Below are positions 13,291-41,387 of a DNA stretch of 43,058 bases, piece after piece. The position numbers and the translations under genes are program-made. The notes under the pieces were generated by a model that was not told the DNA's origin, did not search any database, and saw only the letters and a program-made list of their open reading frames with translations. Position 1 is the stretch's first letter, and each line of letters opens with the position of its first letter. The stretch comes from Aromatoleum evansii (GTDB lineage Bacteria > Pseudomonadota > Gammaproteobacteria > Burkholderiales > Rhodocyclaceae), in NCBI RefSeq assembly GCF_012910805.1, contig NZ_WTVK01000046.1, forward strand, positions 1 through 43,058, read 5' to 3'.

Positions 13291-15870
13291 ATGAGCAAGC
13301 AACTGATCATCGCGGAGAAACCTTCGGTCGCGCAGGACATCGCCCGCGCGCTGGGCGGCTTCACCAAGGAAAAGGACTACTTCGAGTCCGACGAGTACGT
13401 GCTCTCATCGGCCGTCGGCCACCTGCTGGAGCTGGTGGTGCCCGACGAGTACGAGGTCAAGCGCGGCAAATGGACCTTCGCCCACCTGCCGGTGATCCCG
13501 CCGCAGTTCGCGCTGAAACCCATCGAGAAGACCGACGACCGCCTCAAGCTGCTGACGCGGCTGATCAAGCGCAAGGACGTCACCGGCCTGATCAACGCCT
13601 GTGACGCGGGCCGCGAGGGCGAGCTGATCTTCAACTTCATCGTGCAGCACGCGAAGAGCGACAAGCCGGTGCGCCGCCTGTGGCTGCAGTCGATGACGGC
13701 GAACGCGATCCGCGACGGTTTCGCCCAGCTGCGCTCGGCGCAGGAGGTCGAGGGCCTGCGCCAGGCCGCGGTGTGCCGCGCCGAGAGCGACTGGCTGATC
13801 GGCATCAACGGCACGCGCGCAATGACCGCGTTCAACTCCAAGACCGGCGGCTTCCACCTCACCACGGTCGGGCGCGTGCAGACGCCGACGCTGGCGATCG
13901 TCGTCGAGCGCGAGCAGAAGATCCGCCAGTTCAAGCCGCGCGACTACTGGGAACTGGAGGCCTCCTTCGGCTGCCAGGCCGGCAGCTATGCGGGGCGCTG
14001 GTTCGACGAGAAGTTCAGGAAGCCCGAGGGCGACGAGCACGCGACCGCGTTCCGCCTGTGGGACAAGGCCCAGGCCGAGGCGATCAAGGCGAAGTGCGAC
14101 GGCAAGCCGGGCACGGTCACGGAGGAGTCCAAGCCCTCGACCCAGCTCTCGCCGCTGCTCTTCGACCTCACCAGCCTGCAGCGCGAGGCCAACGGCCGCT
14201 TCGGCTTCTCGGCGCGCGTGACGCTGCAGATCGCACAGGCGCTGTACGAGAAGCACAAGGTGCTGACCTACCCGCGTACCGATTCGCGCGCGCTGCCGGA
14301 GGACTACCTCGGCTCGGTCAAGGATGTGATGCGTGCGCTGCCGATCGAGTACGCGCCGTTCGCGAACGAGATCGCGAAGAAGGACTGGGTGAAGCCCAAC
14401 AAGCGCATCTTCAACAACGCCAAGATCTCCGACCACTTCGCGATCATCCCGACCGGCACCGTGCCGAAGAGCCTGTCGGAAGCCGAGCACAAGATCTACG
14501 ACCTGGTCACCCGCCGCTTCCTGTCGGTGTTCTACCCGGCGGCCGAGTACCGCGTGACGACGCGCATCACGCGCGTCGCAGGCGAGGCCTTCAAGACCGA
14601 GGGCAAGGTGCTGGTGAATGCGGGCTGGCTCGCGGTGTACGGCAAGGAAGGCGTCAAGGACGACGAGGACGGCGGCGGCGCGCAGCTGTGCGCGGTGCAG
14701 CCGAACGAGACGGTGTCGACCGACGACATCCTCGTGAAATCGCTCGTGACCAAGCCGCCCGCGCGCTACAACGAAGCGACCCTGCTCTCGGCGATGGAAG
14801 GCGCGGGCAAGATGGTCGACGACGAGGAACTGCGCGCAGCGATGGCCGAGCGCGGCCTCGGCACGCCGGCGACGCGCGCTCAGATCATCGAGGGCCTGAT
14901 CGCCGAACAGTACATCCATCGCGAAGGGCGCGAGCTGATCCCGAGCGCGAAGGCCTTCTCGCTGATCACGCTGCTGAAGGGCCTCGACGTGTCCGCGCTG
15001 ACCTCGCCGGAACTCACCGGCGAGTGGGAGCACAAGCTCGCACAGATGGAGCGCGGCCAGCTGTCGCGCCCCGAGTTCATGCGCGAGATCGCCGAGATGG
15101 CGCGCGAGGTTGTCGAGCGCGCGAAGCGCTACGAGTCGGACACGGTGCCGGGCGATTTCGTCACGCTGGCGACCCCCTGCCCGAAGTGCGGCGGCGTGGT
15201 GAAGGAGAACTACAAGAAGTTCGCCTGCCAGGGCTGCGAGTGGAGCGCGTGGAAGATCGTCGCGGGGCGGCAGTTCGAGATCGACGAGATCGAGACCCTG
15301 CTGCGCGAGGGCAAGGTCGGGCCGCTGATGGGCTTCCGCAGCAAGATGGGGCGGCTCTTCAACGCCGAGATCCGGCTCAACGACGACAAGCAGCCGGAGT
15401 TCGACTTCGGCCAGCCGAAGGACGACGGCGAGGGCGCCGAGCCGGTCGATTTCTCCGGCCAGGAGGCGCTGGGCGCGTGCCCGAAGTGCGCCTCGCCGGT
15501 GTACGAGCACGGCATGGCCTACGTGTGCGCGAAATCGGTGGGGCCGGACAAGGCCTGCGACTTTCGCTCGGGCAAGGTGATCCTGCAGCAACCGGTCGAG
15601 CGCGAGCAGATGACCAAGCTGCTCGCCGACGGCCGCACCGACCTGCTCAAGGGCTTCGTGTCGACGCGCACCAAGCGCAAGTTCTCGGCCTTCCTCGTGC
15701 GTGGAGCGGACGGCAAGGTGGGCTTCGAGTTCGAGCCGAAGACCCCCAAGGCCGGAGCGAAGGCCAAGGCGGGCGACGGAGCCGCCAAGGAAGGCGCAGG
15801 GGCCAATTCGGCCGAGAAGGCCAAGCCCGCCGCGCGCAAGGCCAGCCCGCGGGCCCGCAAGGAAGCCTGA
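13291..15870 (+). CDS. topB: DNA topoisomerase III
   Basis: This type IA topoisomerase cuts one strand and passes another, helping to resolve recombination and replication intermediates. The 859-residue protein has an N-terminal TOPRIM domain (IIAEKPSVAQDIA at 5-17; acidic DAGREGELIF at about 108) and the catalytic tyrosine Y327 in TYPRTDSRALP. Its C-terminal region has one complete Cys4 zinc finger (CPKCGG, then CQGC) and a second cysteine-bearing repeat (CPKCASP). The end, from about residue 815, is a Lys/Ala-rich basic tail that should bind DNA non-specifically. It is larger than E. coli TopB. It ends the LysM-dprA-smg-topB run. Confidence 0.92.
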   Translation: MSKQLIIAEKPSVAQDIARALGGFTKEKDYFESDEYVLSSAVGHLLELVVPDEYEVKRGKWTFAHLPVIPPQFALKPIEKTDDRLKLLTRLIKRKDVTGLINACDAGREGELIFNFIVQHAKSDKPVRRLWLQSMTANAIRDGFAQLRSAQEVEGLRQAAVCRAESDWLIGINGTRAMTAFNSKTGGFHLTTVGRVQTPTLAIVVEREQKIRQFKPRDYWELEASFGCQAGSYAGRWFDEKFRKPEGDEHATAFRLWDKAQAEAIKAKCDGKPGTVTEESKPSTQLSPLLFDLTSLQREANGRFGFSARVTLQIAQALYEKHKVLTYPRTDSRALPEDYLGSVKDVMRALPIEYAPFANEIAKKDWVKPNKRIFNNAKISDHFAIIPTGTVPKSLSEAEHKIYDLVTRRFLSVFYPAAEYRVTTRITRVAGEAFKTEGKVLVNAGWLAVYGKEGVKDDEDGGGAQLCAVQPNETVSTDDILVKSLVTKPPARYNEATLLSAMEGAGKMVDDEELRAAMAERGLGTPATRAQIIEGLIAEQYIHREGRELIPSAKAFSLITLLKGLDVSALTSPELTGEWEHKLAQMERGQLSRPEFMREIAEMAREVVERAKRYESDTVPGDFVTLATPCPKCGGVVKENYKKFACQGCEWSAWKIVAGRQFEIDEIETLLREGKVGPLMGFRSKMGRLFNAEIRLNDDKQPEFDFGQPKDDGEGAEPVDFSGQEALGACPKCASPVYEHGMAYVCAKSVGPDKACDFRSGKVILQQPVEREQMTKLLADGRTDLLKGFVSTRTKRKFSAFLVRGADGKVGFEFEPKTPKAGAKAKAGDGAAKEGAGANSAEKAKPAARKASPRARKEA

Positions 15871-29359: not shown

Positions 29360-30052
29360 CTACCAGGCGGGCGTCGTCGCGGCGGGAACCGGGACCGGCG
29401 GCGGCAGCAGGCCGCCCGACACCGCCCACACCGCCAGTCCGGCAATCGCGAGGGCGAAAACCAGCGCCACCGGACCGCCGCCGCGCGCGGGCGGGATCGC
29501 GGGGTCGTCCACCGCCTTCACGCCGGTGATCATCGGGCGGATCAGGTTGTCCTTCTTCACGTGCGTGTGCCACATCACCGCACCGACGTGCAGCGCGACC
29601 AGGCCGTACACGATCCATTCGGCCTGGCGGTGCAGGCCGCTGATCCAGGTCGACAGCTCGCTCGAGATCGCCTGGTAGAGGGGACCATAGAAGGCGATGT
29701 CGTCATTGGAAAAGGCGCCCGCCAGCGCCTGTCCCGCCATCAGCGACAGCAGCGCGACCGTCGACAGCGCGCCGAGCGGGTTGTGCCCGACGCCGCGCCA
29801 GTGCCCCTTCAGGTAGGCGCCGATCGCGGCGGGCGTCGGCAGGAACTGGGTGAAGCGCGCATAGGTGGAGCCGACGACGCCCCAGACGACGCGGAACACG
29901 ACGACGCCGAGGATCGCCAGTCCGATGCGACCGTGCCATTCCATGGCGTTGCCGCCGATCTTCACGCTGAGGATCGCGCTCGCGACCAACGCAACGAGCA
30001 GCCAGTGCGCGAGACGGGTGGGGAGGTCCCACAGCAGGATGGGGTGCTTCAC
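29360..30052 (-). CDS. Cytochrome b561-type membrane protein
   Basis: The 230-residue inner-membrane protein has four main membrane segments and histidines placed as in the di-heme cytochrome b family of Ni/Fe-hydrogenase and cytochrome b561 subunits: WDLPTRLAHWLL (H16), MEWHGRIG (H40), LHRQAEW and LHVGAVMWHTHVKKDN. A short Pro/Ala-rich tail with a fifth hydrophobic stretch follows. It passes electrons between quinones and a periplasmic partner. The ATG overlaps the uvrA stop (ATGA), an unusual pairing. No partner gene is adjacent. Confidence 0.87.
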   Translation of the reverse strand: MKHPILLWDLPTRLAHWLLVALVASAILSVKIGGNAMEWHGRIGLAILGVVVFRVVWGVVGSTYARFTQFLPTPAAIGAYLKGHWRGVGHNPLGALSTVALLSLMAGQALAGAFSNDDIAFYGPLYQAISSELSTWISGLHRQAEWIVYGLVALHVGAVMWHTHVKKDNLIRPMITGVKAVDDPAIPPARGGGPVALVFALAIAGLAVWAVSGGLLPPPVPVPAATTPAW

Positions 30053-33000
30053 GATTTTCTTCCTTTCTTCGTCTTGCCCGAGGCGGGGATTACCGAGGCG
30101 GCAGCGCCCTCCCCGTTAACAGCGCGCGACGCGAGAAATTCCCCGAGGATGCGCGCGGTATGCGAGCCGCTGCCCGCGCACACGTCCGCAACCGGCCCCT
30201 GCGCGACGATCCTGCCGCCGCCGTCGCCCCCTTCGGGACCGAGGTCGATCAGCCAGTCGGCCTCGGCCATCACGTCGAGGTCGTGCTCGATCGCGAGCAC
30301 GGTGTGGCCGGCATCCGCGAGGCGGTGCAGCACGCGGATCAGCTTGTCGACGTCGGCCATGTGCAGGCCCACGGTCGGCTCGTCGAGCACGTAGAGGGTA
30401 TGTTTTTCGGCCGGCAGCGGACGGCCGCCGGTCTTGGCGCTCTCCCCTGCGCGGCCGCGCACTTTCGCGAGCTCGGTGACGAGTTTGATGCGCTGCGCCT
30501 CGCCGCCCGACAGCGTCGGGCTGGGCTGGCCCAGCGTGAGGTAGCCGAGACCGACGTCCTGCAGCAGCGCCAGGGGATGCGCTATCGACGGATGTGCAGC
30601 GAAGAAGTCGACCGCCTCGTCGACCGGCATCGCCAGCACCTCGGCGACCGTCCTTTCGCGCCAGCGCACGGTGAGCGTCTCGGGGTTGAAGCGCGCGCCG
30701 CCGCAGGCATCGCACGGCAGCTTCACGTCGGGCAGGAAGCTCATCTCGACGGTGGTCTGGCCCTGGCCTTCGCATACCGGGCAACGGCCGGCGCCGGTGT
30801 TGAACGAAAAGCGCGATGCGTTCCAGCCGCGCGTCTTCGCCTCGAAAGTCTCGGCGAAGAGCTTGCGGATCGCGTCCCAGAAACCGACATAGGTTGCGGG
30901 GCAGGAACGCGGCGTCTTGCCGATCGGGGTCTGGTCGACTTCGAGCACGCGGCCGACCGCCTGCCAGCCTTCGATGCGTTCGCAGCCGACCGGCTCAGCG
31001 GCGCTCGTCTGCGCCTCGCCGCGGCGGCGGGCGCGCTGCGCGTCGGGATCGCCGAGCAGCGCGTGCAGGGTGGCGTGGATCACGTCGCGCGCGAGCGTGG
31101 ATTTGCCCGAGCCGGACACGCCGGTCACCACCGTCAGCCGTCCGAGCGGCAGGCGCGCTTCGACGGAGCGCAGGTTGTGCAGCGTCGCGTTCTTCACGAC
31201 GAGGAAGGGGTGGTCGTCGCCGATCGCCAGCGGCGGGCGCATCGGGTGCTGCAGCGGCGCGCGGAAGCAGGCGCCGGTGGCCGATTGCGGGGCGGCCATC
31301 AAGTCGGCGAGTTTGCCTTCGGCGACGACTTCGCCGCCGCGCACGCCGGCGCCGGGGCCGAGGTCGATGACGTGGTCGGCACGCCGTATCGTGTCCTCGT
31401 CGTGCTCGACGACGAGCAACGTGTTGCCGCGGTCGCGCAAGGCTTCGAGGGTGTCGAGCAGCATGCGGTTGTCGCGCGGGTGCAGGCCGATGGTCGGTTC
31501 ATCGAGGATATAGCACACGCCACGCAGGTTGGAGCCAAGCTGGGCGGCCAGCCGGATGCGCTGCGCCTCGCCACCCGAGAGCGTCGGCGCGCCGCGATCG
31601 AGCGCGAGGTAGGCGAGGCCGACCTGCTGCAGGAAGTCGAGCCGGCCGCGGATCTCGGTGACCAGGTCGCGCGCGATGTCGGTCTCGCGGCCTTCCAGGC
31701 TGAGGGTCTCGAAGAAGCCGGCGACCTTGGCGACCGGCTGCGCGGAGAGTTCATGGATGCCGAGCTCGCGGAAGCGCACGGCGCGCGCGACCGGGTTCAG
31801 GCGCGCGCCGTCGCAGCTCGGGCAGACTTCTTCCGTGACCTGTTCGGTCTCGGCGAGATCCAGCTCGTTGGCGTCCTCGACGCGGCCGATGGTGCGCTGG
31901 CCGGTGCCGTAGCAGCTTTCGCACCAGCCATGCTTGGCGTTGTACGAGAACAGGCGCGGATCCGGCTCCGGGAAGCTGTCGCCGCAGGACGGGCAGGCGC
32001 GCAGCGTCGAGAAGGTGTGCGGCTGGGCGCCGACCTTGCCGAGCTGCAGCACCTTGACGACGCCCTTGCCGTGCTCGAGCACCTCGGCCAGTTGGGTGCG
32101 CAACGCCGCCTCGTGCTCGGGGCCGACGACGACGAGGCCGACTGGCAGCTCGATGGTGTGCTCGACGTAGCGGTCCAGTCTGGGCCATTTCGCCGTCGGC
32201 AGGTAGTCGCCATCGACGCGCAGTTGGGCGTAGCCCTTGCCCTTGGCCCATTTCGCGAGCGCGGTGTACAGGCCCTTGCGGTTCGTCACCAGGGGCGCGA
32301 GCAGTTCGACCGAGGCGCCGCGGTAGTCGCGCAGGATCTGCGCCGCGATCGCGTCGAAGCTCTGTGGCGACACCGGGACGTCGCACTTCGGGCAGAACTG
32401 GGTGCCGAGCTTGACGTACAGCAGGCGCAGGAAAGGCTGGATCTCGGTCAGCGTGCCGACCGTGCTCTTGCGGCCGCCACGGGAGACGCGCTGCTCGATC
32501 GCGACCGTCGGCGGGATGCCGAACAGCGCATCGACGTCGGGGCGCGCGGCGGGCTGCACGAACTGACGCGCGTAGGCGTTGAGCGATTCGAGGTAGCGGC
32601 GCTGGCCTTCGCCGAACACGATGTCGAAGGCGAGCGTGGACTTGCCGGAACCGGACAGGCCGGTGATGACGGTGAAACGGTCGCGCGGGATCGTCAGGCT
32701 GACGTTCTTCAGGTTGTGCTCGCGCGCATGGCGGATCTCGATCGCCGGCGCGGCGACCGGGCGGTAGCGCGCGACGGGCTCGGCCACCGCGGTCGTCGGC
32801 TTGCCCAGCGATTGGGCGTAGGCGCGCATCGCAACCCCGGTATGGGAGCTGGCGCAGGCCATGACCGTTTGCGGCGTGCCGGCGACGACCAGTTCGCCGC
32901 CGTCCTCGCCACCTTCGGGGCCGAGGTCGATGAGCCAGTCGGCGGCGAGCAGCACGTCGAGGTTGTGTTCGATGACGACCAGCGCGTGGCCGGCGTCGAG

Positions 33001-35730
33001 GAGCTTTTCGAAGGCGCGCAGCAGGGTCGCGACGTCCTCGAAGTGCAGGCCGGTCGTCGGTTCGTCGAAGAGGAAGAGCAGGCGACCGGGCTGCGATTTC
33101 GCCTTCGACTTCTTGCCGGATAGTTTCGCCGCTTCCGCGAGATGGCCGGCGAGCTTGAGGCGCTGCGCCTCGCCGCCGGACAGCGTCGGCACCGGCTGGC
33201 CGAGCTTCAGGTATTCGAGGCCGACGTCGGCGAGCGGCGCGAGCGCAGCCTGCACGGCAGGCTGGTCGGCGAAGAAGGCCAGCGCCTCCGACACGGTCAT
33301 GTCGAGCACGTCGGACACCGATTTGTCGCGCCACGTCAGCTCCAGCACTTCGGGCCGGTAGCGCTTGCCGTCGCAGTCCGGGCAGCGCAGGTAGACGTCG
33401 GACAGGAACTGCATCTCGACATGCTCGAAGCCCGAGCCGGTGCAGGTCGGGCAGCGGCCGGTGCCGGAGTTGAAGCTGAAGGTGCCCGGCGTGTAGCCGC
33501 GGCTCTTGGCTTCGGGCAGCGCCGCGAACTGCGCGCGGATCGCGTCCCACGCGCCGACGTAGCTGACCGGGTTGGAGCGCGCGCTCTTGCCGATCGCAGA
33601 CTGGTCGACCATCACGACACCGGCGAGCTGGTCCAGCCCTTCGAGGCGCTCGTAGGCGCCGGGCGCCTCGGTCGCCTGGCCGAAATGCTTCGCCAGCGCG
33701 GGGTGGAGCACGTCCTGGATCAGCGTGGACTTGCCCGAGCCCGACACGCCGGACACGCACACCAGCTTGCCGAGCGGAATCTCGATGTCGAGGCTGCGCA
33801 GGTTGTGCTCACGCGCGCCGACGAGGCGCAGCACGGGGTCGTGCTTGCCGACCGGGCGCAGCTTGCGGCCGGCATCGACGCGTTTCCGGCCGGCAAGGTA
33901 GGCGCCGGTGAGTGACGTGGGGTCGGCGGCGAGCTCGGCCGGCGGGGCGTAGGCGACGATCTCGCCACCGCGTTCGCCGGGGCCGGGGCCGATGTCGAGC
34001 AGGCGGTCGGCGGCGGACATCAGCTGCGGGTCGTGTTCGACGACGACCAGCGTGTTGCCGGCATCGCGCAATCTCGTCATCACCGCGAGGATGCGGTCGA
34101 TGTCGCGCGGATGCAGGCCGATCGAAGGTTCGTCGAGGACGAACAGGGTGTTCACGAGCGAGGTGCCGAGCGCGGTCGTGAGGTTGATGCGCTGCACTTC
34201 GCCGCCCGACAGCGTGCGCGACTGGCGGTCGAGCGTGAGGTAGGCGAGGCCGACGTTGGCGAGGTAGTCGAGGCGGCTGCGGATCTCGCCGAGCAGCAGT
34301 TCGGTGGCTTCGTCGAGGCCGGAGGGGAGTTCGACGCGGGCGATGAAGTCGCGCACGCGGCTCACCGGTTGGGCCATCAGCTCGTGGATGGCGAGGCCGT
34401 AGCGGTGCTGTGGGAGCGGCTTCAGCCGCGAATCGGCGTCAAACGGAGCCGAGCCGGTGGATTCGCGGCTAAAGCCGCTCCCACGAAAGTCGTTCAAGGG
34501 CTCCGTACCCAGCCGCCACAGCAGCGCCTCCGGCTTCAGCCTGGCCCCCTTGCACGCCGGGCATTCCGTGTAGCTGCGGTAGCGCGACAGCAGCACGCGG
34601 ATGTGCATCTTGTAGGCTTTTGTCTCCAGCCAGTCGAAGAAGTGGCGCACACCGTACCACTTGCGCGGCCACGAGGCCTCCCAGCTCTTCCATTCCGGGT
34701 CGCCTTCGAGCAGCCACGCGCGATGTTCCGGCGGCAGGTCGCGCACCGGCACGTCCATCGCCACGCCGTATTTCTTCGCCATCTTCGCGAGGTCGTCCTG
34801 GCATTCGCGGTAGCTCGCGGTCTGCCAGGGTTTCACGGCGCCTTCGGCGAGCGTCTTCGATTCGTCCGGGATCACCAGCGAGAAATCGACGCCGATCACG
34901 CGCCCGAAGCCGCGACAGGTGTCGCAGGCGCCGATCGGCGAGTTGAAGGAGAACAGGCCCGGGGTCGGATCTGAATAGTGGATGTCGCAGTCGGCGCAGT
35001 GCAGGTCGCGCGAGAAGCGCCACACCGTCTCGCCTTCGTCATGCTGCGCGCGCACCGCGAGGCGGCCATGGCCATGGGTCATCGCCGTCTCGATCGCTTC
35101 GCTGACGCGGCTGCGTTCGGCATTCGAGAAACGGAAGCGGTCCTGCACGACGTGCAGCAGGTCGCCACTATCCGTCGTTTCGCGCGCATGGATGCGCGTG
35201 TAGCCCTGCTGGTTCAGCAGCTGCGTGACTTCGTCTTCGCTGAAATTCTTCGGCACCGGCACCGCGAAGGTCAGCACCAAGCGCGGGTCCTCCGCCGCGC
35301 AGCGTTCGGCGAGCGCCGCATGCACGCTGTCGGGGTCGTCACGCCGCACCGGCTTGCCGCAGCCGCGGCAATACAACTTCGACGCGCGGGCGTACAGCAG
35401 CTTGAAGTGGTCGGTCAGCTCGGTCATCGTGCCGACCGTGGAGCGCGAGGTGCGCACCGGGTTGGTCTGGTCGATCGCGATCGCCGGCGGCACGCCCTCA
35501 ATGCGGTCGACCTGCGGCTTGTCCATGCGGTCGAGGAACTGCCGCGCGTAGGGCGAGAAGGTCTCGACGTAGCGGCGCTGGCCTTCGGCGTACAAGGTGT
35601 CGAAGACCAGCGAGGATTTGCCGGAGCCCGAGACTCCGGTAACGACCGTCAGCTCGTTCAGCGCGATATCGAGCGAGAGGTTCTTGAGGTTGTTCTGGCG
35701 CGCGCCGAAGATGCGGATGCGGTCGGACAT
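30049..35730 (-). CDS. uvrA: Tandem-fused UvrA excinuclease subunit with four ATPase cores
   Basis: This 1893-residue protein is two UvrA-like units in one chain; ordinary UvrA is about 940. P-loops lie near residues 35 ([10 protein letters not shown]), 663, 1025 ([10 protein letters not shown]) and 1539. [13 protein letters not shown] signatures lie near 507, 850, 1382 and 1740. Several CxxC zinc-binding pairs are present (CPTC/CPDC near 760; CPVC/CDAC near 1640). UvrA finds damaged DNA and loads UvrB. Long double UvrAs occur in other betaproteobacteria, usually beside a normal UvrA; whether one exists here is not visible. Residues 416-441 are encoded by a REPIN (34410-34484). Confidence 0.9.
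34410..34484. repeat. REPIN inserted in frame in uvrA, copy 2
   Basis: Two 25-bp inverted arms (34410-34434 and 34460-34484) differ at one pair and enclose a 25-base middle. They begin GTGGGAGCGGCTTCAGCC, as in the element at 7876-7930. The whole is 75 bp, a multiple of three, with no stop in the frame used. It encodes [19 protein letters not shown] and nearby residues, which are out of character with the flanking UvrA sequence. Confidence 0.85.
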
Positions 35731-36892: not shown

Positions 36893-38056
36893 TTATTTTA
36901 CCGTGAGTTCGGAAAATTGCACCAGGGTCGACGCGAGATCCTGCAGCGCCGCGAGCCCGTCCGACCAGCGACGCGCGTGCGGCACAAGCTGCGGCAGCGC
37001 ATCGGCGAACGCGGGCCACGCGGCGGCAAGGCTGCCCTCGCCGTTCCACGCCTTCCAGAACGCATGGGTCGCGTCGGATGCAGCCTCGTCGAGTCCGGCC
37101 AGGTAACGCGCGAGGAAGGCGTCGAGCTTGTCGTGATGCACAGCCTCGTCCTGCTCGTAGATGTGCCACACGAAGGGCCGCGCGGCCCACTGCGCGCGCA
37201 CAAAGGAATCCTCGCCGCGCACGAAGTTGAGCTCGCAGGCCCACAGCAGGCGGTCGTAGTCGGCGGTGTCGAGGAAGGGCAGGACGACCGTGCTCAGAGC
37301 GCCCGCGGCAAGGATCTCGCCGGCCCGTGCTTCCGCGCGCCCGAAGAAGCGCAGCACGTCGCCCAGCACGCGGCCTTCCGGCACCAGCAGCAGGGTCGGG
37401 CGCGGGGCGCCGGCCCACAGGCGCAGGAGTTCAGGCAACTGCGGCTGCTCGTAGGCGAACAGCGACACGAGGCGAGCGCCCTCCGCGGGCACGGGAATGC
37501 CGCGGCCGGCGAGCCAGTCGCGCCGCGCTATCGCGTCGGCCTGGAAACGGTCACGCGCGTCGAGCAGCCCGCGTTCGCGCAGCAGACCACCGCTGCGCGC
37601 CGTGAAACCGGGGAAGCAGAACCGTTTCGCCAGCGGCAGGCGCGGATGCGGCGAGGCCAGCCCGTGGCAGCCCTCGACCCAGTCCTCGGCCGACAGGTAT
37701 TCGAGGTTGATCCAGTGCGGCCGCGGCGTCGCGGCGGCCATCGCCTCGACGTAGGAGGCGGGCGGCTCGCAGGCGAAGGCCTCGACGACCGCACGTGCCG
37801 GCAGCACCTCGGGAAAGGGCTCGCGCCAGCGACGCACCTCGACCCCCTCCACCCGCACTGCGTCACCCGCATCGGCCGCCGCCGGGCACAGGCGCGCGAA
37901 GGTCCCCCAGTCGTCCACCCACAACCTGACCGCGCACCCGTGATCGTGCGCCAATGCCTTGGCCAGCCGCCAGCAGACGCCGATATCCCCGAAGTTATCC
38001 ACAACGCGGCAGAAGATGTCCCAGTCGAAGGCGGGCGCGGCGTCGGCAAGGCTCAT
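36893..38056 (-). CDS. earP: EF-P arginine rhamnosyltransferase EarP
   Basis: EarP uses dTDP-rhamnose to modify Arg32 of EF-P. The 387-residue product begins near [22 protein letters not shown], the conserved N-terminal segment with the catalytic Asp. In the C-terminal half it has [19 protein letters not shown], followed by [19 protein letters not shown]. The ATG at 38056 is preferred over an in-frame start 90 bases upstream, which lies inside the DnaA-box-rich region and adds poorly conserved residues. The codons for VDN contain a perfect DnaA box on the opposite strand. Confidence 0.94.
37995..38003 (+). promoter_or_regulatory. Perfect DnaA box inside earP
   Basis: TTATCCACA occurs in the coding sequence for the conserved VDNF segment of earP, about 220 bases before the box of the first module. 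It may be accidental, since the codons are constrained, but it is in the same orientation as the other perfect boxes. Confidence 0.45.
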
Positions 38057-38059
38057 GGC

Positions 38060-38264
38060 GGTGGACAAGTGCGGGAAAAGGAGGGGAATGCTTTGTGGGA
38101 AAAGGGCTGGATCGGCATCGACCGGAAAACGGGCCACAATCGCCACACAGGTGAACCGGGGGTTTATCTACGGAGTTCTACCGTCCCGGAGTGCCTGCGG
38201 GCGCTGGCGAAGACGGACTTATCCACAGAAAACGCGACACTATATATATCTTTATCTTTTAAAT
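38060..38264 (+). other. Origin-like module A: DnaA boxes and AT-rich tract
   Basis: In order this gene-free module holds: TTGTCCACC on the minus strand (38060-38068, 7 of 9 to the DnaA box), TTTCCCACA on the minus strand (38094-38102), a 24-base block shared exactly with module B (38133-38156), TTATCTACG (38164-38172), the perfect box TTATCCACA (38219-38227) within an 18-base shared block, and an AT-rich tract (about 38239-38280) with CTTTATCTTTTAAAT (38250-38264). This is the make-up of a replication origin: initiator sites beside an unwinding element. Confidence 0.55.
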
Positions 38265-38290
38265 AAAACAAACTACTAAAAGGAAAACCT

Positions 38291-38584
38291 CCACGGCACG
38301 GCGCCAGGGGAATCGCACGCGCTCTCGCAGGGCGGGAGCAGCAAAGCGTCTCCCGCCAGAGGTCCGTGCAAGCAAGGCGCCTTCGGTGCAGTGGCGGTGA
38401 AGTCGCCCCATTCGGCCTTCGGCTACACCGTCCTATGGCCTTGCACACCTCGCAGCCGAATCGGTCGCAAGACCGGCGTCGGCCGCAGCTCGTGTTCGGG
38501 CTCGGCATCGCGATGCCGGACAGGTGTCCGATCTGGCGTCAACTGCATCGCACAGCGGCCTTCCCGTTCCTGAACGGCTCCTCC
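38291..38584. other. Gene-free spacer between the two origin-like modules
   Basis: No convincing coding sequence, RNA gene or known repeat is seen. The segment has a stem GGCGGGAG (38331-38338) / CTCCCGCC (38350-38357) with an 11-base loop. The open frames across it lack family motifs and read as chance frames in GC-rich DNA. Confidence 0.5.
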
Positions 38585-38796
38585 AGTGGATAAGTCGGTG
38601 GAGGAGCACAGGGAGACTTTGTGGGGAAGGAGCGGAAATTCGTGAACAGCCAAAACGAGCCACAATCGCCACACAGGTGAACGGGGCACTTGTCTACGGG
38701 GTTCTACCGCGACGAAAGGCTTGCAGGCATTGGTGGATCTGGACTTATCCACAGAAAATGGCCGCCTATATTCTTCTTTATCTTTTAAATTTAAAG
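38585..38796 (+). other. Origin-like module B: DnaA boxes and AT-rich tract
   Basis: The blocks of module A recur in the same order, mostly exactly 526 bases further on: TTATCCACT on the minus strand (38585-38593, 8 of 9), TTCCCCACA on the minus strand (38620-38628), the shared 24-base block (38659-38682), TTGTCTACG (38690-38698), the perfect box TTATCCACA (38745-38753) in an 18-base shared block, and an AT-rich tract with CTTTATCTTTTAAAT (38776-38790). Sequence between blocks has diverged, so the blocks look selected. Confidence 0.55.
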
Positions 38797-38812
38797 AAAT
38801 ACAGAAGAACAA

Positions 38813-39070
38813 AACCTGAAACTGCGGGAAGCGGCCGGGGCAAGCCCCGGAACGGGGACCTGCCCTCGTTCGAGGGGAGCGTGGTCTGCAGGGAGAGGCA
38901 GGAAGACACGGTCCGAAAGCCGGGTTGCGGACCATGCAGGCGGGGCGTTCAGGGACATCGGGCGGGAGGAGCCGAAGGCGGATCCCGCCGCTTCACGCTC
39001 CGTAAATCGCCCGCAGGAAGTCGTGGCGGGATTCGCTGCGCTGCGCCCGCCCGACGGGAAAACCGCGCGC
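38813..39070. other. Gene-free flank right of module B
   Basis: No gene recognised. It holds a tight stem CCGGGGC-AA-GCCCCGG (38835-38850) and a wider one GGCGGGA (38961-38967) / TCCCGCC (38983-38989), similar to the stem in the spacer between the modules. The end of rsuA follows, transcribed toward this region. Confidence 0.45.
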
Positions 39071-39787
39071 TCAGTCGGTCTCGTCGTAATCGGCGAGGCG
39101 TGCGAGATCGGCTTCCTCGAGCCAGCACCATTCGCCCGGTGCGAGGTCGTCGGGCAGGGACAGTCCGCCGACGACGCTGCGGTGCAAGGCCTCGACACGG
39201 TTGCCGGCTGCGGCGAGCATGCGCTTGACCTGATGGTACTTGCCTTCGGTGATCGTCAGCCGTAGACTCCGCTCCCCCGTTTTCAGGCAGGCTGCCGCGG
39301 CGATCGGTGCCGGTTCGTCGAGGAGTTCGACGCCCTCGAGCAAGACGGCGATCAAGGCGTCGTCCACCGGGTGCTTGGTCGTGACCTCATAGACCTTGGG
39401 CGTGCGCTTCTTGCCCGAGCTCCAGCGGTGGATGAACTGGCCGTCGTCGGAGAGCAGCAGCAGGCCGGTGGTGTCCTGGTCCAGCCGCCCGACGCACTGC
39501 ACGTCGCGGTTCGCCAGCATGTCGGGCAGCAGCGCGAACACCGAGGGGTGGAACTGCGGCCGGCGCGAGCACTCGTAGCCGGCGGGCTTGTGCAGCATCA
39601 GGTAGGCCTTTTCGCGATAGACCCAGGTTTCGTCGTCTACGCTGAATTCGAGGCCCTCGGGCGCGAAGTCTTCGGCTGGGTTGTCGAGGATCCGGCCTGC
39701 GACAGCGACCAGGCCGGCACGGATCAGGGCGCGGCATTCCTTGCGGCTGCCGAACCCCTGGGAATGGAGTAGTCGTTCGATGTGCAT
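39071..39787 (-). CDS. rsuA: 16S rRNA pseudouridine synthase RsuA
   Basis: RsuA converts U516 of 16S rRNA to pseudouridine during 30S assembly. The 238-residue protein has an N-terminal S4-like RNA-binding domain (MHIERLLHSQGFGSRKECRALI) and the catalytic domain with GRLDQDTTGLLLLS, in which Asp103 is the nucleophile, then KYHQVKRMLAA near the C-terminus. The length fits. It is divergent from the DUF1857 gene by 75 bases and is the first gene right of the origin-like region. A close relative such as RluE/RluF type is less likely given the sequence style. Confidence 0.9.
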   Translation of the reverse strand: MHIERLLHSQGFGSRKECRALIRAGLVAVAGRILDNPAEDFAPEGLEFSVDDETWVYREKAYLMLHKPAGYECSRRPQFHPSVFALLPDMLANRDVQCVGRLDQDTTGLLLLSDDGQFIHRWSSGKKRTPKVYEVTTKHPVDDALIAVLLEGVELLDEPAPIAAAACLKTGERSLRLTITEGKYHQVKRMLAAAGNRVEALHRSVVGGLSLPDDLAPGEWCWLEEADLARLADYDETD

Positions 39788-40418: not shown

Positions 40419-41387
40419 ATGTGGTTCAAGAACTTGCAGATCTATCGCGTTCCCGCCGGCTGGACGATGACGGCCGAGACGCTGGAGGAACAACTCGCGC
40501 GCAAGCGCTTCCAGCCCTGCGGCAGCCAGGACCAGGAAACCCGCGGCTGGCTCTCGCCCACCGGTGACGAATTCCTCGTGCATCAGGTCGGCGGCCAGTG
40601 GCTGATCGCGCTGGGCGTGGAGAACCGTCTGCTGCCCTCGTCGGTGGTCAAGCAGGAGGCCGAGGAACGCGCCGAGGCGCTGGCCGAGCAGCAGGGTTAC
40701 AAGCCCGGGCGCAAGCAGATGAAGGATCTGCGCGAGCAGGTTTTGCAGGAATTGCTGCCGCGCGCGTTTACACGGCGCAGGAAGGCCTTTGCATGGATCG
40801 ACCCGGTCGGGGGGTGGCTCGGCATCGATGCGCCCAGCCAGGCCCGTGCGGAGGACGTCCTGGAGGTATTGCGCCAGACGCTGGACACCCTGCCGCTCGC
40901 GCTCGTGCGCACGGAGCTGTCGCCGACCAGCGCGATGGCCGACTGGCTCGCGGGCAATGAGGCGCCCGCCGGCTTCACGATCGACCAGGATTGCGAACTG
41001 CGTTCGGTCAGCGAGGACAAGGCCGCGGTGCGCTACGTGCGCCATCCGCTCGAAGGCGACGAGGTGCGCGCTCACCTCACGGCGGGCAAGCTGCCGACCC
41101 GCCTCGCGCTGACCTTCGACGACCGCGTGAGCTTCGTGCTCACCGAGAAGTTCGAGATCAAGCGCCTCGACTTCCTCGACGTGGTGAAGGAAAACCTCGA
41201 CCAGGCCGGCGCCGAGGACGCGCGCGCGCTGTTCGACGCGGGCTTCGCGCTGATGACCGGCGAGCTGCAGCGCCTGCTGCCGGCCGTCGTCGCGGCGCTG
41301 GGCGGGGAACTGAAGGGCGGCGAGGTGCCGGCCGCAGCGGAGGGGGTCGCGTTCGCGACCGCGTCGGCGAGCGACGCGCCGTTCTGA
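40419..41387 (+). CDS. rdgC: Recombination-associated protein RdgC
   Basis: RdgC is a ring-forming DNA-binding protein that limits RecA activity and helps replication restart. The 322-residue product starts MWFKNLQIYRVPAGW and shows the family's central segment (GYKPGRKQMKDLREQVLQEL, then RRKAFAWIDPVGGWLGI) and a C-terminal RLDFLDVVKENL. The tail ends ASDAPF. This faintly recalls the acidic-hydrophobic tip of SSB but is too short to claim. It is probably cotranscribed with the DUF1857 gene. Confidence 0.94.
   Translation: MWFKNLQIYRVPAGWTMTAETLEEQLARKRFQPCGSQDQETRGWLSPTGDEFLVHQVGGQWLIALGVENRLLPSSVVKQEAEERAEALAEQQGYKPGRKQMKDLREQVLQELLPRAFTRRRKAFAWIDPVGGWLGIDAPSQARAEDVLEVLRQTLDTLPLALVRTELSPTSAMADWLAGNEAPAGFTIDQDCELRSVSEDKAAVRYVRHPLEGDEVRAHLTAGKLPTRLALTFDDRVSFVLTEKFEIKRLDFLDVVKENLDQAGAEDARALFDAGFALMTGELQRLLPAVVAALGGELKGGEVPAAAEGVAFATASASDAPF

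Follow-up and report, generated by a model that had tools for sequence, protein, structure and literature searches.

Gene context and layout of the earP-rsuA gap

The gap between earP and an rsuA-like gene in the A. evansii window (the whole stretch of 43,058 bp analysed here) holds two modules, A and B, each with the same order of blocks: an inverted DnaA-like box, TTTGTGGG, a 24-base block GCCACAATCGCCACACAGGTGAAC, two weak boxes (one of the (T/G)TCTACGG type and GTTCTACCG), the perfect box of the module (TTATCCACAGAAAA), a short spacer and an AT-rich tract that contains TCTTTATCTTTTAAAT. The features are as follows, with window positions and the basis of the assignment in brackets:

36893-38056, minus strand: earP, EF-P arginine rhamnosyltransferase (TIGR03837, PF10093)
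37995-38003, plus strand: perfect DnaA box TTATCCACA in coding DNA at the 5' end of earP; box A is 224 bp away
38061-38069, minus strand: module A inverted DnaA-like box GTGGACAAG (block alignment)
38092-38105, minus strand: module A TTTGTGGGAAAAGG (block alignment)
38133-38156, plus strand: module A 24-base block GCCACAATCGCCACACAGGTGAAC, same in B, CACAGGTGAAC conserved
38164-38183, plus strand: module A weak boxes TTATCTACG and GTTCTACCG (block alignment)
38219-38227, plus strand: module A perfect DnaA box (box A), adjoining the putative unwinding element (box search)
38239-38288, plus strand: module A AT-rich putative unwinding element with TCTTTATCTTTTAAAT at 38249-38264 (least stable 50-mer of the window, z 6.3)
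38307-38422, no strand: inter-module spacer with pieces of a dispersed repeat (six further matches in the same genome)
38585-38593, minus strand: module B inverted DnaA box TTATCCACT (box search)
38618-38630, minus strand: module B TTTGTGGGGAAGG (block alignment)
38659-38682, plus strand: module B 24-base block (same as in A)
38690-38709, plus strand: module B weak boxes TTGTCTACG and GTTCTACCG (block alignment)
38745-38753, plus strand: module B perfect DnaA box (box B; box search)
38766-38815, plus strand: module B AT-rich putative unwinding element (second least stable 50-mer, z 6.0)
39071-39787, minus strand: rsuA-like pseudouridine synthase gene on the opposite flank of the gap (TIGR00093 above cut-off)
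40419-41387, plus strand: rdgC (PF04381, NF001463)

For the rsuA-like gene the RsuA model NF008097 is the best match, yet it scores below its own cut-off. The longest earP ORF, with a GTG at 38146, would run into module A; because the EarP models start matching at residue 12 counted from the ATG at 38056, module A probably starts upstream of earP, approximately 5 bp from its start. At the perfect box inside earP the codon choice for V-V-D-N is about 0.2% likely given the codon use of eight ORFs in the window. The pieces of dispersed repeat in the spacer match many places in relatives too. Elsewhere in the window, positions 30049-35730 hold an UvrA-like ORF of 1893 aa, apparently a double-length UvrA, the halves of which cross-match relatives at approximately 65% DNA identity.

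The original prediction described two modules approximately 526 bases apart in which the spacing of the blocks is kept to within one base while the DNA between them differs, and the alignments agree with this. Modules A and B form a 151-bp repeat with 76% identity and a start-to-start distance of 526; the 24-base block is identical in the two, the GTGGA-type inverted box lies 158 and 159 bp, respectively, from TTATCCACA, and TTTGTGGG lies 127 bp from TTATCCACA in both. Among 32 aligned modules it is the blocks that are common and not the spacers, and the GTGGA of the inverted box is kept at a level of at least 85%.

DnaA boxes, helix stability and regulatory signals

Perfect matches to TTATCCACA are present at 37995, 38219 and 38745 and TTATCCACT is on the minus strand at 38585; together they represent four of the five sites with at most one mismatch in the window. 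Shuffled windows had on average 1.1 such sites, and five were reached in one of 100 shuffles. The whole A. evansii genome has 14 perfect boxes in 5.94 Mb, and three of them lie within 759 bp (corrected chance approximately 2e-5; Poisson, assuming uniform placement).

The two AT-rich tracts rank first and second among the least stable 50-mers of the window, and within 400 kb of relatives the locus has stability rank 1 (G004 and G011), 1-2 (G012 and G014) and 2-3 (G009). Two features by which an oriC is recognised, a cluster of DnaA boxes and an AT-rich element adjoining a box, are hence present in the gap, the latter as judged from computed instability. Moreover, a conserved TCTTTATCTTT adjoins the perfect box in the modules. 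Module B has six DnaA-trio-like triplets whose central base is T (NAN when read on the opposite strand), the first of which is 14 bases past the box, and module A has four after a spacer of 20 bases. The basal unwinding rule, as given in PMC8287927, is at least three DnaA-trios no more than 16 bases from a box; the locus, and module B in particular, resembles such an oriC in that a perfect box is followed by an AT-rich element, whereas the triplets of module A begin beyond the limit. Unlike a basal unwinding oriC, the locus has two full modules in one gap and is not situated beside dnaA in relatives.

The same properties bear on the other option offered originally, a datA-like locus near the origin, which would titrate or inactivate DnaA and not itself be melted. 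The boxes are dense and of high affinity, the DNA is gene-free and dnaA is distant, and E. coli datA is likewise a DnaA-box cluster away from dnaA. The datA locus is not known to have an unwinding element, and a box cluster lacking such an element is not what is found in the gap: the most unstable DNA of the neighbourhood is at each module end, with the conserved motif beside the box, and these ends are strong putative unwinding elements. We therefore consider a datA-like role very unlikely.

Alternatively, the gap might contain a promoter, either for earP or for a duplicated small RNA, controlled by DnaA, which can also act as a transcription factor. Module A does abut the start of earP; module B is approximately 0.5 kb away from it and is also conserved. 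A search gave no promoter-like (sigma-70 consensus only) and no terminator-like site, and there was no Rfam match. The small-RNA/promoter reading, which had been named beforehand as an outcome that would speak against an origin, was rejected on these grounds and appears extremely unlikely.

Conservation within Aromatoleum and age of the duplication

Using blastn, the region was detected in all 17 Aromatoleum genomes (that of A. evansii included) and in none of 24 genomes from other genera of the order (one each). Box A and the earP box, the latter being the third perfect box that had been noted originally, are perfect in all 17 genomes; the distance between them is 224 bp, except for one genome with 225 bp. 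Module B is carried by 11 of the 17 (G000, G001, G002, G003, G005, G009, G012, G013, G014, G015 and G016) and absent from G004, G006, G007, G008, G010 and G011. Box B is perfect in ten of the 11 carriers, with TTTTCCACA instead in G014, and modules A and B of G001 are on two different contigs. Where the three perfect boxes are on a single contig (eight genomes), A and B are 410-629 bp apart. For G013 the distance is 618 bp and the earP box is duplicated as well (box distances 224, 394 and 224 bp); the duplicated unit (L013) also contains the region around the earP box, a vestige of the way in which a duplication came about.

In a module tree (FastTree) the A and B copies of the nine closest carriers form separate clades with local support of 0.994 and 0.976; the branching of the G013 and G014 modules is less clear. 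Judging from the module sequences, these separate clades argue for an old duplication of which both copies have been retained without homogenising, and the suggestion that the repeat is not a recent duplication holds for the nine closest genomes.

In the eight relatives where dnaA and the locus are on one contig, they are 27-81 kb apart in all eight; the orientation of the locus relative to dnaA is flipped in G002, G009, G012 and G014 and not in G004, G006, G007 and G011. A position next to dnaA or another indicator gene, which is common for an oriC and not obligatory, is accordingly lacking. For the earlier description of an unlinked origin, "unlinked" is too strong a word at these distances. 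A fixed place in relatives, a further oriC feature, is seen throughout the genus and in the loci examined outside it, as follows.

Distribution in the family and second modules

A sequence-only profile of the module, run on 199 genomes of the family, matched in 72 of them, which represent 27 of 68 genera, while 127 genomes had no match to the profile. Outside the genus we examined the strongest 24 of 66 matching loci. earP is within the same 3.1 kb in all 24 and directly adjoins the module in 23; in L279 rsuA sits between the two. There is no RsuA match in four of the 24 (L278, L280, L283 and L284), where the other neighbour is rdgC or an AtaL-domain gene, and in further examined loci rsuA runs off the end of the locus. 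The comparison with relatives, proposed as a check, came out in favour of the locus: all 17 Aromatoleum genomes and part of the family keep this architecture at a common position next to earP.

Twelve longer loci were inspected (L249, L251 and L286-L295). Seven of these (L249, L251 and L286-L290) have a second module that points towards the first, the two being separated by 2.5-3.7 kb with rsuA, the AtaL-domain gene and rdgC. L293 has two modules of like orientation on either side of rsuA, L294 has an inward-facing pair, yet no EarP match, and L291, L292 and L295 have one module each. No rdgC-side second module was found in the A. evansii window, and we infer that Aromatoleum lost this module and that most of the species seen gained a tandem copy.

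Several of the inward-facing second modules share words of their own, e.g. CATCAACAA and TGTGTACACCC. Azoarcus indigens has a module that resembles this second type (L237, 61-176), with no EarP, RsuA, RdgC or DnaA match within 8 kb.

In 17 of 22 modules an inverted box (no more than one mismatch) precedes the melting-side box by 122-126 bp; the modules without it are one each of L287 and L290, L291 and both of L294. A good inverted box approximately 125 bp before TTATCCACA is frequent in other genera at the place of TTTGTGGGAAAAGG, and its Aromatoleum counterpart is degenerate (TTTGTGGG). The distance between the earP box and the module box outside the genus is 223-224 bp in nine of ten loci holding both, the exception being L251 (232 bp), and it is 233 bp in L245. 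Module and dnaA are 11-112 kb apart in nine genomes of other genera (a tenth, G091, had a weak match only and was left out).

Boxes were also searched from approximately 1.5 kb before to 0.1 kb inside earP, which was found in 20 of 24 genomes outside the genus (one per genus); two fragments of G027 were dropped and 19 loci were read. None of these has more than one near-perfect box: 14 have no box at one mismatch or less and five have one. The weak profile matches of G017, G019 and G023 are on contigs other than that of earP, and we do not claim these as origins.

A pattern drawn from the locus and run on genome contigs matched 29 stretches, 14 of them in this family. Four of the 15 outside the family are at canonical origin places, which from the translations we take to be the rnpA-dnaA gap (Pseudomonas abyssi), the region upstream of mnmG (Halopseudomonas) and a gyrB-adjacent position in the Nitrosomonas Nm166 dnaA region; the fourth is the dnaA region of an Acidaminococcus MAG. 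The remaining 11 have no DnaA, EarP, RsuA or RdgC match.

Strand skew

The A. evansii assembly is a draft of 330 contigs, in which the window is contig 271 and dnaA is on another, and the skew was computed instead in 400 kb each of five relatives (G004, G011, G009, G012 and G014; values below are in this order). In G004 and G011 the raw cumulative minimum is 9 kb away from the locus; for G009, G012 and G014 it is past the locus by 71, 63 and 33 kb. The interval from dnaA to the locus has negative skew in all five. With third-position skew corrected for gene strand, the switch is at -8, -8, +22, +21 and +33 kb from the locus. The 1.92-unit interval includes the locus in the first two genomes, is beyond it in the other three, with the switch 21-33 kb off, and leaves dnaA out in all five.

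Log-likelihood losses are 0.2, 0.4, 3.5, 3.4 and 11.6 at the locus, 6.0-20.6 at dnaA and 9.8-25.6 at the hemE-priA gap (gene names from TIGR01464 and TIGR00595); summed over the genomes they amount to 19.1, 54.5 and 71.8, respectively, compared with 4.9 for a point at approximately 14 kb of the window. The switch is tens of kb closer to the locus than to dnaA in four genomes and slightly closer in the fifth, and in a block bootstrap, the intervals of which are wide, it was closer to the locus in 73-95% of draws. Skewed 6-mers have their minima at -10, 0, +22, +21 and +24 kb from the locus and skewed 7-mers, a set that has some words in common with the 8-mer set, at -10, -2, -3, +21 and +24 kb.

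The 8-mer set itself was dropped, as it is dominated by a CRISPR-like array of G011. This array (contig C1, approximately 2068-2077 kb; L084-L085) has 98 GGCCTATCCCCG words, mostly 61 bases apart, and distorts local counts of skewed oligomers. Twenty further stretches of G004 are in rough agreement with switches at approximately 1.77 and 3.6-3.7 Mb, apart from some such as 2.04 Mb (slightly negative).

The switch is shifted toward the earP side in all five genomes. In the joint synteny-mapped fit the best point is near 14 kb of the window, approximately 24 kb from the modules and without a box cluster, close to an ORF (13291-15870) that we take to be topA-like. The five switches fit a fixed distance of 68 kb from dnaA slightly better than one of 24 kb from the locus, and the cumulative skew minimum of the window alone is near 13 kb, away from the modules. 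This best joint fit would be accounted for by an origin at another point of the conserved earP-side block, e.g. near 14 kb, that has no recognisable standard boxes and is assisted by the earP modules. The fit rests on few orthologous genes, however, so that the five genomes are not independent, and the first 37 kb of the window contain no more than three isolated matches to TTATNCACA at one mismatch or less (152, 3072 and 10180) and no element as unstable as the module ends; we regard such an origin as highly improbable. The skew favours an origin in this 40-kb block and speaks against dnaA and hemE-priA, and inside the block it is the boxes and melting elements, not the skew, that point to the modules.

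Alternative candidate origins at and beyond dnaA

An origin adjacent to dnaA was rejected: it is outside the skew interval in five of five genomes and its instability ranks are 11-42. One perfect box is present upstream of dnaA, and two in G014.

The main rival reading places the working origin in the hemE-priA gap, across dnaA from the earP-rsuA gap, and makes the earP locus a former or secondary origin or a DnaA-binding helper region. The hemE-priA gap has TTGTCCACA and TTATCCACA in all 17 members of the genus and TTATGCACA in 16, short DNA matches in nine of 24 other genomes and an unstable stretch (ranks 8, 9, 1, 3 and 5 in the five genomes). Its box cluster scores above the locus in G009 and G012 and is tied with it in G011 and G014. 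The parS-like sites, 4-6 kb from dnaA versus 33-89 kb from the locus, are closer to hemE-priA than to the locus in G004, G011, G012 and G014 and about equally close in G009, and PMC4403523 lists Ralstonia pickettii and Ochrobactrum with a predicted hemE-side origin. Against this, the gap is 66-99 kb from the locus, beyond dnaA, and its log-likelihood loss exceeds those of dnaA and the locus in each of the five genomes. We consider it unlikely that hemE-priA is the working origin. The conserved box cluster and AT-rich stretch there (G004, approximately 17990-18190 of L052; L187-L203 in the genus) constitute a second origin-like site in this part of the chromosome, which could be an older origin.

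Discussion

Our data suggest that the earP-rsuA gap is quite probably the chromosomal oriC of this Aromatoleum species, a soil bacterium, with a duplicated unwinding module. The proposal builds on the anatomy, conservation, gene context and helix instability of the locus and on the regional skew switch. Of the two options raised originally, the origin is supported over the datA-like locus because each module ends in a very unstable element beside a perfect DnaA box, because the architecture is conserved beside earP in the genus and part of the family, and because the skew switch is nearer to the locus than to dnaA, though not exactly on the locus.

From this arrangement we infer DnaA binding, melting, helicase loading and the use of both modules. 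DnaA would bind the perfect boxes, one in earP and one per module, and would then extend, by way of the weak and inverted sites, as far as the box next to each AT-rich element. A DnaA filament forming on one strand from this box would melt the element, and the helicase would be loaded. The ancestral state was probably a single module beside the earP box, and the second module an old duplication of the entire box-and-melting unit that has been kept since. More tentatively, and with considerable doubt, such origins might work with a pair of distinct unwinding modules, both of them melted by DnaA and used for helicase loading. The pair would be in tandem in most Aromatoleum genomes seen and convergent across rsuA-rdgC in relatives such as Thauera and Parazoarcus; sister genera would then differ in how many modules they have and which way these point, but not in the position next to earP.

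The Helicobacter pylori oriC has clusters that flank dnaA and an unwinding element in only one of them, whereas each Aromatoleum module has its own putative unwinding element. It is described as bipartite, two parts being treated as a single origin (PMC8235120), and is in this respect like the locus reported here. The hemE-linked origins of Caulobacter and, as predicted, R. pickettii (PMC4403523) are similarly box clusters among housekeeping genes off dnaA; they occupy another gene gap, and a hemE-priA cluster exists separately in Aromatoleum. That an oriC can be away from dnaA is known in principle (PMC10225481). Our literature search gave no account of an earP-rsuA origin or of a tandem duplicated unwinding module, and DoriC may list the region. 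The apparently new points are a location next to earP, shared by several genera of the family, and the gain or loss of full unwinding modules, tandem or convergent.

In one skew survey, that of Azoarcus sp. EbN1 is the sole chromosome of nine fully scored with a computed origin far from all five origin gene pairs, the published model placing it 5.1-6.0% of the chromosome from the origin genes (PMC2099444). An earP-rsuA origin bears on this anomaly, though the published distance is larger: if G004 is EbN1, the locus is 1.9% of the chromosome off. The likely origin of this aromatics-degrading group would sit where a search beside dnaA would miss it. Moreover, with natural genomes that have one or two modules, in tandem or convergent, the number of melting sites that an origin needs becomes directly testable.
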